This document shows, piece by piece, positions 3,520 through 52,472 of a DNA stretch of 61,784 nt. The position numbers were made by a program, and so were the translations under genes. The DNA comes from Peptococcaceae bacterium. GTDB taxonomy: Bacteria; Bacillota; Desulfitobacteriia; Desulfitobacteriales; Syntrophobotulaceae. Below the pieces are notes generated by a model, which did no database searches, was not told the DNA's origin, and worked only from the letters and a program-made list of their open reading frames with translations. The DNA lies in NCBI GenBank assembly GCA_012839895.1, contig DUML01000099.1, forward strand, positions 1-61,784. The letters are read 5' to 3'. Positions within the stretch are counted from its first letter, which is position 1; each line of letters begins with the position of its first letter.

Positions 3520-5196
3520 TTAGAAGAGCCCGGAAATCTTCCCTGTGCTGTCAACGTCAATATTTTCAGCAGCGGGCACTTTCGGCAAACCAGGCATGGT
3601 CATTATATCCCCGGTCAAAGCAACGGCAAAACCCGCTCCCGCGGCTATTTTGACGTTGCGGATGGAAATTTTGAAGCCTGTAGGCCTTCCCAGTTTCTTG
3701 GGGTCGTCCGACAGGGAATACTGGGTTTTAGCCATACAAACCGGGACATCCCCGTAACCGATCTTTTCAATTTGCTCAATATCTGCGGAACTGGAACCGA
3801 TAAAGTCCACCCCGTCCGCCCCATATATTTTAGTGGCAAGCTGGGTGATTTTTTCTTTAAGCCCCAAGTTAAGATCATAAGCAAAATTAAACTTTTTAGG
3901 TTCTTCCATACATTTAATAACTTCCGTCGCTAAGGCTACTCCTCCCTTGCCGCCTTTTTCCCAGACTTCGGACAAGGCCACCCGGACGCCAAGCCTCCGG
4001 CATTCTTCTTTGATAACATCAAGTTCAGCTTGACTGTCGGTCGGGAAACGGTTAATAGCGACAACAGCCGGCAGGCCAAAATGGACGGTAATATTCTCGA
4101 TATGCTTCAAAAGGTTGGGAAGGCCCTTTTTCAGGGCAGCCACGTTTTCCTGGCATAAATCGGCTTTAGCTACCCCGCCATGGGATTTTAAAGCCCGGAC
4201 CGTGGCTACAATTACAACGGCATCAGGCCTTAAGCCGCTTAACCGGCATTTAATATCCAGGAATTTTTCCGCACCTAAGTCGGCACCGAAGCCGGCCTCG
4301 GTAACTACATAGTCTCCAAGTTTCAAAGCCATCTTAGTTGCTATCAGACTGCTGCAGCCGTGAGCAATATTGGCGAATGGCCCGCCATGAATAAAGGCAG
4401 GCGTATGTTCCAAAGTTTGGACAAGATTAGGTTTTAAAGCGTCTTTTAACAGGGCGGCAACAGCCCCCTGGCACTTAAGTTGACCGGCTGTCACCGGCTC
4501 CCCTTTACGGTTATAGGCAACAATTATTCTTGCCACCCGCCTTTTTAAATCCTCAAGGTCATCGGCAAGACAGAGAATAGCCATTATTTCGGAAGCAACT
4601 GTGATATCAAAACCGTCTTCCCGGGGTGTTCCATTGACCTTGCCTCCCAAACCGCTGACAATAAACCTTAACTGCCGGTCATTCATGTCCAGGCACCTTT
4701 TCCAGACAATTCTCCGGACATCGATATCCAGTTCATTGCCTTGTTGGATATGATTATCCAACATAGCGGCAATAAGATTATTGGCGGCCCCAATAGCATG
4801 AAAATCGCCGGTAAAATGCAGGTTGATATCTTCCATCGGCACTACTTGGGCATAACCGCCCCCTGCTGCCCCTCCCTTTATGCCGAAAACCGGGCCCAAG
4901 GAGGGTTCACGCAAAGCAATAATTGTCTTATGCCCCAAATAGTGCAAAGCGTCCCCTAATCCTACCGAAACAGTGGTTTTCCCTTCTCCGGCAGGGGTAG
5001 GATTAATGGCTGTGACCAAAATTAATTTACCGTTAGGTGCATCTACTTTAGTCCTTAATAGATTGTAATCAACTTTAGCTTTATACTTGCCATAAGATTC
5101 GATATAGTCTTCAGGAATGTCCAGTTTTTCTGCAATCTCTAAAATAGGTTTTAGTCTTGCTGCTTGAGCGATTTCCAAATCACTTTTAAATGCCAC
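3520..5196 (-). CDS. fhs: Formate--tetrahydrofolate ligase
   Basis: This cytoplasmic enzyme joins formate to THF with ATP to give 10-formyl-THF, the entry of the methyl branch of the Wood-Ljungdahl pathway. The P-loop TPAGEGKTT (about residue 60), [34 protein letters not shown] and the final ISGLF are hallmarks of the family. From GTG 5196 it is 558 residues, the usual length, and begins [12 protein letters not shown] like its relatives. A second start at GTG 5247 adds 17 residues with no family equivalent, but it has the better ribosome site (AAGGAG within the end of metF). The two genes are likely translationally coupled and the real start is open between these two. It is last in the minus-strand C1 operon. 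Confidence 0.96.
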
Positions 5197-5248
5197 TCTC
5201 TTCCTCTCCCTTGCCGTTTTTTGTTGTCTATGAATCTGGCAGTACACC

Positions 5249-6808
5249 TTAATCTCCTTTTTTCTTGGGGTGGCTGATTTTTAATCTTTCGGCCGAATGG
5301 TCTTTGCCCAGATAAAAATTCAACCATGAAGATGTATTTTTCAGCTTCCAGTTACAGGGGTTTACCTGGTAGGAATTTAAATTTTCTTCTTCCCGATACT
5401 TTTTCAAGTTAGCAAAGGCTCTGACCCAGATACATTTTTTTTGACCCGGATATACTTCGCACCAGCCGTAATAACTTCCCCCGCAAGGGCCGTTTCTTTG
5501 GTTTTTCGGGCAATCACCCATTGGGCAAACATACGCCGTATCGATCAAAGCGCAGTCTCCACAATCCTGGCAGTTATATAAGGCAGCCTTCAGGCTATGC
5601 TCCAGAGCGTGAAACCCCTTTTCCAGCCGGGTGCCTTCAATTTTGGCGGAAAGGCTGCGCATTGCCGGGAACAGGTTCTTCTCCGGAACAAAAAATAACT
5701 TGTGAAATCTCCGGGAAATCTTATACCTTAGCTCTTGCTTTGTATCGTCTTTTGCCGGTGGAGGAGCCATTTCTTCCTTATTCAGGCCGGTTTTTTCGTC
5801 CGGGGCAAAAAGGTAATAGCCTTGGTCCTGGGGATAAACAAATTCCCTGATAAGCTCCTGCCAATTAGCTAAATACTCTTCACCCCTATTTATTATATAG
5901 GCGACCTGTTCATAGGCAACATCCAGCCCGCCGATATGAACTCCTTGATAACCCATCCTTTTCAAAACAGCATAAAGCTTGGCTGCCCGCTCCAATCTTT
6001 TTTGGGCGCCTTTATCAGCACTTGCCCTTTCCAGTTCGACCTCGGCCAGGAGCTTATCCGTAACCACACAGCCGGGGAATTTTTGTTGGTTCATGAGCTT
6101 AGCAGCCTGGTAAGTTAAAAGAAAAATATTGCCGAAAAGCGGAATTTGCCAATTATTTTGCCGAGCAACGAGGAGTAATTCATGATATTTGCGGGCATCA
6201 TAGCCTACCTGGGAAACAATAAATTCAGCCCCGTTAGCAATTTTCTTTCTAAGCTTTGAATACTGAAGTTTAACTTCTGCTTCAGTGGCTTTAAAAGGCG
6301 ATACTACAGCACCGACACAAAAATTAGCCGGTTGAAAAACAGTTTGCTTCGAAGACGGGGCCTCCAAACCACGCTTCATTGCAGTTATTAATTGCAAGAG
6401 CTGGGTAGAATCAAGGTCAAAAACCGGCTTCGGGGTTCCCCAGCTGCCTTCAACCACATAATCGCCGGTAAGAACTAATATATTATGTAAACCTAAACGC
6501 TCCAAGGCATATAACTGGCTTTCCAGCTGAGAGCGGTTCTTATCTTTACAGGTTAAATGAATAATAGTTTCCAGGCCCATATCGGCAATTTCCTTGCCGA
6601 TTACTTCCGGTTTAATGCCTATGTGTCCCCCGGGGTTATCAGTTAAACTGACGGCATGAACAAGATTGCCCTTGGCGGCCTGCTCAGCCAGTTTCAGAAC
6701 CTTTTCCTGACATGGTTCCCAAGCTCCCCGCCCGGGTACAAGTTCCCAAGTTACGATAAACTCTTTGGCTTGCAACCGCTCTTTTAGTGTTTTTCGTGTT
6801 TTTCCCAA
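5249..6808 (-). CDS. metF: Methylenetetrahydrofolate reductase fused to a MetV-type Cys-rich domain
   Basis: The protein has 519 residues and starts at TTG 6808 after GAGGTG. Residues about 1-310 are the MetF TIM barrel, which reduces methylene-THF to methyl-THF ([31 protein letters not shown]-like segment, LVLTGDY). After a linker, residues about 410-470 form a Cys-rich tail with [29 protein letters not shown] and C-I-W. This is the MTHFR C-terminal/MetV-type metal-binding domain. In some acetogens MetV is a separate subunit; here it is fused. It probably lets the enzyme take electrons from partners other than NADH, but the electron donor is not shown. The downstream fhs start overlaps its end. 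Confidence 0.92.
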
Positions 6809-6979
6809 CCCTGAACACCTCTATTTACCCTCAAAGAGTTTGTCTTTCTTAAAGAGCTTGGTAATTCTATTTTAGGTATAAACAAGTTATTATAATAACA
6901 TCCTAGCCCAAAGAGGTCAAATTTAGAGATTAGCTTTTACAGATATAGCTTTGCTTATTAAGATTTACAGATTTGCCGT

Positions 6980-7681
6980 TTACATGTTTAGCCTGTTGCA
7001 ACTATCCCCGGTTCCGCTTATCTTCGGATAAAAATCACTCAAATCAACTTTCCCGCCTTTTGGCACTATTACAAAATCCCTCGACTCTGAACCGCAAACC
7101 AATTTCTTCAATAAAGAACAGTTCCCTTCCTCTACAATGAACTCCAGACCCGCTGCTACAGCAAACTCCTCGGATCTTTTCAGAAGCTCTTTTAATTCTT
7201 CTTCCCCGGAAACAGCGGAATCAATGTAGAGGAGAAAACGGTACTCCTTAAGCATAGCCTTGATAATTCTTTTCGCTCTCTGCTCTCCGTAACGCCTCTG
7301 CAAACGATCCAGTTCGGCAGTTATTCCTTTGGGACTCTTTAGCCAGCCTTTGCTTAAGAAATAAGTTCTGCTTCTGCGGACAAATTTTTTGTCGCCGGCA
7401 CTTAATAAAATCTCAATACAGTCCTCGGTCCGGGGGATAATCAATTGGGCGGTGGAAGCAATTAAACCGGCAGTAGCATTACCGCAACAGCCGTAGCCTA
7501 AAAGGATGGCCTCATAGCCATTCAGGCTGTCAATTTCCAATTGCAACTTAGTCCGCAATTGTTCAGGATTATTATGGTACTCCGAAGGAACCCAAACCAC
7601 AGGATAGGACAGGCCTTTTTCCTTCAAAATTTTAGATAATTCATCTTTTAAAACTTCACAGCAGATTATGGCTTTTTTCAT
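6980..7681 (-). CDS. DUF1638 domain protein
   Basis: The 233-residue protein belongs to the DUF1638 family, as shown by the N-terminal KKAIICCEVLKDEL, LLGYGCCGNATAGL (about 80) and IPRTEDCIEILLS (about 100), with conserved Cys residues that look like ligands. The family is usually found beside corrinoid proteins and pterin-dependent methyltransferases of methylotrophic anaerobes, and its biochemical role is unknown. Here the gene follows a stub of exactly such a methyltransferase by 15 bases and precedes metF and fhs. A role in one-carbon or corrinoid handling is therefore likely by context. The final 30 residues (after VCGSESRDFV) are more variable. Confidence 0.8.
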   Translation of the reverse strand: MKKAIICCEVLKDELSKILKEKGLSYPVVWVPSEYHNNPEQLRTKLQLEIDSLNGYEAILLGYGCCGNATAGLIASTAQLIIPRTEDCIEILLSAGDKKFVRRSRTYFLSKGWLKSPKGITAELDRLQRRYGEQRAKRIIKAMLKEYRFLLYIDSAVSGEEELKELLKRSEEFAVAAGLEFIVEEGNCSLLKKLVCGSESRDFVIVPKGGKVDLSDFYPKISGTGDSCNRLNM

Positions 7682-7696
7682 GCGATTAATCCATTC

Positions 7697-7807
7697 CTAT
7701 TTTCCTTCTTGCAAACTGCTCATTCTGATAAAGTCAGCATCTCTCTCCTCAATAGCTTTCTTAACGGATGGGATAGTCCCATTAATTTTTTCACCAATAA
7801 TAATCAC
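7697..7807 (-). pseudogene. N-terminal stub of a pterin-binding (DHPS/MtrH/MtgA-like) methyltransferase
   Basis: This short frame starts at GTG 7807 with GGAGGG seven bases upstream. It encodes 36 residues beginning V-IIIGEKINGTIPSVKKAIEE and ending at TAG 7697. IIIGEKINGTIPSV..AI..RDA.FI is the start of methyl-THF:corrinoid methyltransferases of the dihydropteroate synthase fold, which are normally about 260-290 residues. Homology ends after DADFIR and eight unrelated residues follow. It lies directly behind two operator-like repeats and 15 bases before DUF1638. It is either a deletion remnant or a short leader peptide kept for translational coupling. Confidence 0.7.
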
Positions 7808-7819
7808 TCTTTTCCCTCC

Positions 7820-7858
7820 CTAGACAAGTCTATAATATCTATTCTAGACAAGTCTATA
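7820..7858. promoter_or_regulatory. Two GntR-operator-like repeats
   Basis: CTAGACAAGTCTATA occurs twice, at 7820-7834 and 7844-7858, 24 bp apart. Each holds the inverted repeat TAGAC-AA-GTCTA. The pair sits between the end of the GntR-family gene and the ribosome site of the methyltransferase stub, so it is placed to control the stub-DUF1638-metF-fhs transcript. Sites of this form are typical for HutC-type GntR regulators. Binding is inferred. Confidence 0.65.
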
Positions 7859-7896
7859 CAACTATAAATATAAATAATAACTTTGCTTGCAACCTG

Positions 7897-8610
7897 CTAT
7901 TCCAAGGCTGAAAAAGGCGACCTGGCGTACAATTTGCAATAATCCCCTCGATAATAGGTAATTCCCAGCCCGATTGGTTCTTTTTGATAATTGAACAGTT
8001 TTTGTTCCACCACCAAAAGAGGCTGGTGGTTATAAAGGGAAAGCTGCCGAGCGATTTCATCGTCAGGCAATTGAGCGGAAATGGTCAATTCCTTCTGAAT
8101 CGCAAATAAAGAGGTATATTTGGATACCATTTCCGGGAAAGTCCCGTATTGAATCTCTTTTTCCACAACCGGCATACCTTTATAGTAAATGAGATATTTA
8201 AGGTCATAAGCTACTTTTTCACTGTTGCTGTAAAAAAGCCTTTTCACCAGGATTATTTTTCTATTGCTTGACAGGTGTAGACTATTCATCACTTCAGGAG
8301 GGGGAAGGACTATTTTTACTTCCAACAAACGGGTACGGTCAATGCGGCTGATTAAATTAACCAATTCATTGTAATAAAGTAAATATTTTTCTGAGTCCGG
8401 CTCTTTGACAAAGCTACCTTTACCGGCAATGGAAGCAATATAGCCTTCAGTGCTCAATAAAAAAAGGCTTTTCCGCACTGTCATCCGGCTGACATTATAT
8501 GTCGCACATAAAGAATTCTCGGAAGGAATAGAATCACCCGGCTTTAAGTTCCCATTTCTTATTTTTTCTTTAATCTCTTCCGCAATTTGCAAATATTTAG
8601 GCAGTTCCAT
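7897..8610 (-). CDS. GntR family regulator, HutC type (UTRA domain)
   Basis: The 237-residue cytoplasmic regulator has an N-terminal winged helix (residues 1-70: YLQIAEEIKEKIRNG, PGDSIPSENSL, YNVSRMTVRKSLFLLSTEGYI). A C-terminal UTRA effector domain (about 90-235) ends in GLGITYYRGDYCKLYARS, the usual close of HutC/FarR-like proteins. It is transcribed with the upstream trigger-factor-like gene (14-base gap). It is followed by two repeats that are good candidate operators, so it probably controls the C1 operon and responds to a small ligand. The ligand is not known. Confidence 0.88.
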   Translation of the reverse strand: MELPKYLQIAEEIKEKIRNGNLKPGDSIPSENSLCATYNVSRMTVRKSLFLLSTEGYIASIAGKGSFVKEPDSEKYLLYYNELVNLISRIDRTRLLEVKIVLPPPEVMNSLHLSSNRKIILVKRLFYSNSEKVAYDLKYLIYYKGMPVVEKEIQYGTFPEMVSKYTSLFAIQKELTISAQLPDDEIARQLSLYNHQPLLVVEQKLFNYQKEPIGLGITYYRGDYCKLYARSPFSALE

Positions 8611-50514: not shown

Positions 50515-51300
50515 CTATACAGCCTTAACCATGCCGCCGTCCACGAAAATGGTGCTGCCGGTAACAAAGGTACAGGCTTCGGAAACCAAAAATGTCACCA
50601 CTTTGGCAAACTCCTCCGGCTCCCCGTATCTCCCCAGAGGAATAGTCTTGCGGGACTGGGCTGCGACTTCTTCCGGGGTAATTCCCAGTTTTTCAGCTTT
50701 AACCCTATCTAGGTGAGCAACCCTTTCTGTAGCAATCCGGCCCGGAGCAACAGTATTGACCAAAATGTTATAAGGAGCCAATTCTTCAGCCAAAGATTTG
50801 GAAAGGCCTAAGACGCCCATGCGAAAAGTATTGGAAAGAATCAGGTTGGGGATGGGCACTTTAACCGAAGAAGAAGCCAAATTAATAATCCGGCCGCCCT
50901 TTTGTTTCAGATCCGGCAATACCTCCCGGATAAGCCGGATATAGCTGAGCAGGTTTAGCTCGTAGGCTTTTTGCCAATCTTCATCGTTAAAGTTTTCAAA
51001 GCCCCCTGCGGGCGGGCCTCCGGCATTATTAATCAAAATATCGATCTTGCCTAAAGTGTCTCTGGTATATTGCACTAAAGCCTTGATATCCTCAGCCTTG
51101 GTTATGTCCGCTTCAAAATGGGCGACTTCACCTTTTCCTAAGGCTTGCAGTTCTTCATAGGCGGCCTTAAGTCCCGGTCCGTCATTACTGGTAATCATCA
51201 CTTTGGCGCCTTCAAGCACTAATTGGGTTGCTATTGCCTTGCCTAAACCCTGGCTGGAGGCAACAACCAACGCTACTTTACCCTCTAAATTTAGATCCAT
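50515..51300 (-). CDS. SDR-family oxidoreductase with altered active site
   Basis: The 261-residue Rossmann protein resembles 3-oxoacyl-ACP reductases. The cofactor loop is VASSQGLGKA (usually TGxxxGxG), then NNAGGPP (about 90), the catalytic-Ser region NLASSSV (about 140) and VNTVAPGRIATERV (about 185). The catalytic YxxxK is replaced: where Tyr and Lys are expected the sequence reads SNTFR. This S...R pattern defines a subgroup of SDRs whose reaction is not established. It follows the FAH-family gene on the same strand with a 48-base gap, so both may serve one pathway. Confidence 0.85.
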   Translation of the reverse strand: MDLNLEGKVALVVASSQGLGKAIATQLVLEGAKVMITSNDGPGLKAAYEELQALGKGEVAHFEADITKAEDIKALVQYTRDTLGKIDILINNAGGPPAGGFENFNDEDWQKAYELNLLSYIRLIREVLPDLKQKGGRIINLASSSVKVPIPNLILSNTFRMGVLGLSKSLAEELAPYNILVNTVAPGRIATERVAHLDRVKAEKLGITPEEVAAQSRKTIPLGRYGEPEEFAKVVTFLVSEACTFVTGSTIFVDGGMVKAV

Positions 51301-51348
51301 TCCAAAAAACCTCCTGTACAGTTAATTTTGAGTTTCCGGCTTTTTAAC

Positions 51349-52227
51349 TTACCGGACTAATTTCAAGTCCCTAACCGGATTAACAAGGGGTTCAAAGCCG
51401 CAAATACGGCACTCCACAACATCCCCTTCATTAATAACTACCGCACCCGGCGTCCCGGTGGAAATAATATCGCCGGGCAGCAGGGTCATAACTTGAGAGT
51501 GGAAAGCCACCAAGGTCTCCGGCCGGAAAGTCATATTGGCAATAATATTCTCCCGATGAACCTTGCCGTTAATAATCGTAGCCACTTTTAAGTTATCGAG
51601 ATCTGCAACCTCATCAGGAGTGACGAGCTGCGGCCCGAAACTGAAAAAAGTGTTAAAGCTCTTGGCACGGGTTAGGTAACGGGGATTTTGTTTTAATATA
51701 TCTTCCGCAGTCATATCAATGATTGTTGTATAGCCGGCAATATAATCCATCACTTCTTTTTCCCCGATACCGTAACAACGTTTTTTGATGATTACCCCTA
51801 ACTCCGCTTCAGCTGTCGTCCGGTTAGATTGGCGGGGAATTTCTATGTAGTCACCGGGGCCGATAATTGCGGTATCAGGTTTCATAAAGCTGGCCGGCTC
51901 TGTTTTTGGCGTACTAGCCTCCAAATCTGCAGCATGCTCCACATAGTTTAAACCAATTCCCCAAATTTTACGCGGATGACGGTAAAGTGGCGCGTATTGG
52001 ACTTTATCAGGAGGAATAACATATTTTGACCAGTGACTTATGTTCTGCAGGCCTTCCGTTTCCCACCAAGCCTTTAAAGCATCAAGCTGCTCCTTAGCAA
52101 TTATTGAGAATAAGTCCTCCTCAAAATCCTGCCCAAGAGCTTTCAAAGCCCGGACAGGCAGCAAGCCTTGCGGTGTGACAAGCGCAGCAATTTCCTCTTC
52201 TCTCTGTTTAATAGAGGCCAGACGCAT
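51349..52227 (-). CDS. Fumarylacetoacetate hydrolase (FAH) family protein
   Basis: The protein has 292 residues from ATG 52227 with GGGAG eight bases upstream. An N-terminal domain of about 85 residues is followed by the FAH catalytic domain: IWGIGLNYVEHAAD (about 90), FMKPDTAIIGPGDYIEIP (about 115), the metal-binding Glu residues in TAEAELGVIIKKR (about 140) and GDIISTGTPGAV near the end. Members hydrolyse, hydrate or decarboxylate 2-oxo acids such as acylpyruvates and 2-oxo-enoates. It forms a small operon with the SDR. Substrate unknown. Confidence 0.86.
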   Translation of the reverse strand: MRLASIKQREEEIAALVTPQGLLPVRALKALGQDFEEDLFSIIAKEQLDALKAWWETEGLQNISHWSKYVIPPDKVQYAPLYRHPRKIWGIGLNYVEHAADLEASTPKTEPASFMKPDTAIIGPGDYIEIPRQSNRTTAEAELGVIIKKRCYGIGEKEVMDYIAGYTTIIDMTAEDILKQNPRYLTRAKSFNTFFSFGPQLVTPDEVADLDNLKVATIINGKVHRENIIANMTFRPETLVAFHSQVMTLLPGDIISTGTPGAVVINEGDVVECRICGFEPLVNPVRDLKLVR

Positions 52228-52472
52228 AGTTATCACTCCCTATAATTATCTTTTTACAGCCCTAAGCTAAGCAAAGCAACGTTTCACCGAAAAACATCAG
52301 TCAAATCCACAAAATTTTCCAACGATTAACAATGGTCTAATATTAAAATTTTATAATAAAACCCAAAAACTATCAACGGTTGAGGCGTTCCCAAAAGACA
52401 ATTAATTCATATACATATCCTGTAAGCACTATTATCCTGAAAGCACTATCTTGAGACAGGGGGCGTTCGCCG

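Follow-up and report, generated by a model that had tools for sequence, protein, structure and literature searches.

Based on gene order in related genomes, we propose that a 36-codon reading frame in the window, by which we mean the whole 61,784-nucleotide stretch of DNA analysed here, is very probably all that survives, at the 5′ end, of a second methyl-THF:corrinoid methyltransferase gene whose expression signals were retained. We regard it as the remnant of a second methyltransferase because a full-length methyltransferase gene precedes DUF1638 in eight relatives, operator-like sites stand before the methyltransferase in five genomes and an intact methyltransferase is encoded on another contig, C32, of the same genome. 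Because the genome retains an intact homologue of the lost gene elsewhere, the frame looks like an ordinary relic and not like a novel regulatory device: we see here ordinary gene decay in a reshuffled one-carbon (C1) locus. From the regulator to DUF1638, it contains the following elements.

7897..8610, minus strand: GntR/HutC-type regulator with GntR and UTRA domains (Pfam GntR 2e-20, UTRA 1.9e-17)
7844..7858, no strand assigned: distal twin site, which together with base 7859 contains the GntR-type core GTATAGAC
7852-7859, minus strand: distal core GTATAGAC, at -52 from the stub start
7820..7834, no strand assigned: proximal twin site, 24 bp from the distal copy
7828-7835, minus strand: proximal core TTATAGAC, at -28 from the stub start
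7814..7822, minus strand: Shine-Dalgarno sequence of the stub, TAGGGAGGG, 6 nt before the GTG
7697..7807, minus strand: methyltransferase stub, GTG start, 36 codons (36 aa), ending in TAG
7724-7807, minus strand: stub codons 1-28, the methyltransferase part, with residues MIIIGEKINGTIPSVKKAIEERDADFIR, those of the methyltransferase family
Remainder of the stub, minus strand: codons 29-36 and the TAG, a tail unrelated to the methyltransferase
6980..7681, minus strand: DUF1638 gene (PF07796, E 1.1e-39)

The first-pass annotation had recognized a methyltransferase in the first 28 residues of the frame, and a protein search bears this out. Stub residues 1-32 match NCBIfam NF005719/PRK07535 (methyl-THF:corrinoid/FeS protein methyltransferase) with an E value of 1.5e-8, covering only the N-terminal strand and helix of that family; a Pfam search of the stub gave no match because the piece is very short. 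For each of residues 1-28, at least one of 15 intact homologues has the same amino acid at the matching position, and none of them has residues 29-31 (MSS); the methyltransferase therefore breaks off at codon 28. Intact relatives measure 263-269 aa, and therefore about 240 residues are missing, as the annotation had also stated. The stub resembles the AcsE/MtgA/MtvA-like methyltransferases (PRK07535, Pterin_bind) in its first 28 residues but is without most of the TIM barrel, including the folate and corrinoid sites, and hence cannot be an active methyltransferase. Its 36 codons leave no room for the full-length Pterin_bind barrel (~265 aa), no further methyltransferase fragment occurs in the window, and no C-terminal fragment was found elsewhere in the genome. 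Compared with the C32 methyltransferase, the 28 codons show no decay: 15 differ synonymously and 2 change the amino acid (75% DNA identity over 84 nt). This pattern indicates a gene that worked for most of its past and was lost recently, or else a remaining piece under constraint.

How might the gene have been lost? We suggest that the methyltransferase gene lost codons 29 to ~267, plus whatever separated it from DUF1638, either in a single deletion or through a recombination that moved DUF1638 up to codon 28. The regulator encoded upstream would bind the twin sites and now control DUF1638 through the old methyltransferase promoter, while the C32 methyltransferase would supply the enzymatic activity. 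The tail beyond codon 28 has no convincing match to the C-termini of the methyltransferase or of the amidohydrolase that in some relatives separates methyltransferase and DUF1638, and a rearrangement may thus have been involved. A 13-bp near-repeat (12 of 13 positions) links the stub tail (7708-7720) with the 3′ flank of the GntR gene (7886-7898), which by our estimate is about what chance would yield in 400 bp.

The comparison of relatives' loci that the annotation had called for gave a divided answer. Eight relatives (G014, G006, G019, G068, G050, G031, G032 and G009) do have a full-length methyltransferase gene immediately ahead of DUF1638, with gaps of 41-111 nt, in keeping with the proposal that an ancestral methyltransferase was deleted and its signals retained; the exact order GntR-methyltransferase-DUF1638 was met in none of the relatives, all of them from other genera, where the GntR gene is usually divergent or downstream. 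Several other family members carry the order MetF-FocA-Fhs-FchA-FolD-methyltransferase-amidohydrolase, after which comes DUF1638 in G021 and, in the others, CODH genes, DUF1638 being lost or broken there. Genus g3 (G002, G012, G017, G023) provides the mirror case, in which the methyltransferase is intact and DUF1638 survives as pieces, frameshifted or with internal deletions, that lie between the genes for the amidohydrolase and CooS at these positions.

L110:13601-14060, broken DUF1638
L112:781-1345, broken DUF1638
L113:621-1180, broken DUF1638
L114:13701-14440, broken DUF1638

Mirror decay of this kind implies that one or the other gene of this pair has been lost repeatedly, which makes reading the stub as a relic economical. 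Truncated operon genes are known relics of the same sort: the 5′ end is kept, the rest is gone, an intact paralogue is present elsewhere and the downstream gene is intact. The stub differs in nothing essential, except that it has no base-level decay yet. In the same region, SDR and FAH genes located some 42 kb away (window 50515-52236) adjoin the GntR gene in G011 (L054:39-1448), with 82% and 86% identity, respectively; their displacement is a sign of reshuffling.

It had been claimed that the stub heads the C1 operon. It does head DUF1638. For the C1 set as a whole this holds only possibly, and doubt is cast on the claim by the separate promoter-like site and GntR-type core that MetF-Fhs possesses (candidate promoter/operator, 6876-6920). 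The elements downstream of DUF1638 are these.

6892..6920, minus strand: promoter-like site TTGACC-17-TATTAT before MetF-Fhs, a consensus match only
6876..6883, no strand assigned: GntR-type core GTATAAAC/GTTTATAC, just downstream of the promoter-like site and before MetF
5249..6808, minus strand: MetF-type methylene-THF reductase with a MetV-like C-terminal domain (PF02219 2.4e-23, PF12225 1.7e-27)
3520..5247, minus strand: formate--THF ligase, Fhs (PF01268 1.6e-274)

The promoter-like site matches the consensus at 10 of 12 positions and has a TG before the second hexamer. MetF-Fhs is thus not clearly in one transcription unit with the stub and DUF1638.

Operators of HutC-type GntR proteins share a GTnTAnAC core, as for TreR, PhnF and NagR. 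The twin sites ahead of the stub, noted at the outset as operators, are two exact 15-bp copies of CTAGACAAGTCTATA, a pair that appeared in none of 100 shuffles of the window; together with the stub ribosome site they occupy the 89 bp that follow the GntR gene, and the stub comes next. The distal core fits GTnTAnAC and the proximal core has one mismatch. The window core GTATAGAC and the TGTATATACA sites of relatives are therefore of the same core type and lie at C1 genes, although the predicted twin sites have diverged from the relatives' consensus. An operator matrix derived from the sites of relatives and of C32, the window's own sites excluded, placed the distal site 4th, the core in front of MetF 5th and the proximal site, a weak match, 188th in the entire window. 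GntR-type TGTATATACA sites stand immediately before the methyltransferase in five same-family genomes (G017, G002, G012, G023, G021). In G021 the intact methyltransferase is preceded by twin sites, likewise 24 bp apart, at -31 and -55, close to the -28 and -52 of the window cores, a parallel that further favours retention of the old expression signals.

The regulator itself is an orthologue of the family's C1-pathway GntR (69-76% identity), and in 10 same-family genomes such orthologues are neighbours of MetF, of a RACo-type activator gene or of both. TGTATATACA-like sites precede the methyltransferase and CODH genes in several genomes that have this orthologue. The stub pointed the way to a likely one-carbon (Wood-Ljungdahl) GntR regulon in this bacterial family, predicted from TGTATATACA before MetF, methyltransferase and CODH genes, as well as to the repeated loss of methyltransferase or DUF1638 from the pair; the GntR protein would be expected to bind all of these candidate sites. 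We also observed that TGTATATACA-like sites recur before MetF in those genomes with close GntR orthologues for which the sequence upstream of MetF was inspected, and that they lie upstream of MetF, methyltransferase and CooS genes at L110, L112, L113, L114, L057 and L077. The sole exact TTGTATATACA of the genome is found before the C32 MetF.

The genome contains two divergent one-carbon gene sets, one on C32 (G000:C32, L077) and one at window positions 3520-7858. On C32 an intact methyltransferase (4757-5557, an open frame of 270 aa) follows MetF-FocA-Fhs-FchA-FolD. Besides this one intact methyltransferase, a Pterin_bind search of the genome returned a 291-aa frame, read as FolP, and a 1223-aa protein, read as MetH, and no AcsE-like methyltransferase. 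Between the two sets, MetF shares 65% and Fhs 82% identity, and the paired proteins are not sisters in trees; judged by their sequences, the two sets are old and divergent. A recent duplication from C32 within the genome was considered as the origin of the stub and rejected, given these trees and the 75% identity of the 84 nt of stub DNA.

What else could a short frame with such good expression signals be? The first-pass annotation had offered a leader peptide as its alternative, in which ribosomes load at the stub site, halt 15 nt before DUF1638 and aid its start. The ribosome site is as well formed as had been described: UAGGGAGGG pairs with the anti-Shine-Dalgarno sequence at -12.1 kcal/mol, the strongest of 18 starts scored, and the stub is probably translated in view of it, a product that need not matter. 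The DUF1638 site has -4.4 kcal/mol, the weakest of the eight DUF1638 starts compared. The 15 bases between the stub TAG and DUF1638 were confirmed, both share one frame, DUF1638 abuts or overlaps its upstream gene in some relatives, and the 28 codons are without amino-acid decay. With its short frame, strong site and stop shortly before a weak-site gene, the stub does look like a translational leader. Unlike such leaders, however, it is not conserved, leaves a 15-nt gap, has no RNA structure and derives from an enzyme gene. No similar stub was seen among more than 150 methyltransferase N-termini in scans of 74 genomes of the order and a phylum sample of 398 genomes, none of the same genus; the only other short N-terminal matches came from G023 (19 residues, with a stop), G052 (a frame of 134 aa) and, near contig ends, G163 and G344. 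The gap is unfavourable in that it nears the ~20 nt at which, after a steep fall, both E. coli and Haloferax volcanii have almost no reinitiation left (PMC10666635). Shuffled sequences fold at least as well as the RNA (z +1.6), on which ground an RNA switch was dropped as well. The signs of coupling to DUF1638 are circumstantial, and a leader peptide is unlikely. Also unlikely is a co-option in which the promoter and operators of the methyltransferase, together with its first 28 codons, would serve DUF1638 control, with selection keeping the stub and the corrinoid-maintenance gene under GntR control apart from the other C1 genes. The locus mainly teaches caution: what looks like a convincing small frame, strong ribosome site included, may turn out to be the truncated beginning of an enzyme gene.

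The remaining alternatives dispute the break itself or the stop behind it. A draft genome in 132 contigs with 2.9% contamination might conceal, through an assembly or consensus error, a methyltransferase that is intact in the cell. The junction DNA, however, has no second copy in the genome, where the only match is the 78% identical start of the methyltransferase, which makes a repeat-driven misjoin unlikely. The contig is moreover continuous over 61.8 kb, the frame is clean and a C-terminal methyltransferase fragment turned up nowhere, so that we rate such an artefact as very improbable. More improbable still is a stub-DUF1638 fusion by read-through of the TAG, for instance with pyrrolysine, despite the single TAG, the shared frame and the methyl-corrinoid context. 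We discarded it because no pyrrolysyl-tRNA synthetase (PylS) scored above cut-off in the genome; the weak PylS matches resemble those of most control genomes and are read as other class II synthetases, and methyltransferase and DUF1638 are separate genes in intact relatives.

Returning to the loss of the methyltransferase, we note that the gene left behind may make sense of it. DUF1638 has a single match in the genome. In Phaeobacter inhibens methionine rescues mutants of this gene, which co-occurs with a RamA-like corrinoid activator, a genetic link to corrinoid reactivation (PMC5764234). The literature on this domain is thin; a genetic study and a proteomic mention were drawn on here. To keep DUF1638 and drop a redundant methyltransferase would be biologically sensible. 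The genome encodes one RamA-like activator, whose gene lies on contig C86 next to those for a corrinoid protein and a methyltransferase of the UroD type. The same contig carries a CODH-like gene with just 29% identity to the CooS of relatives.
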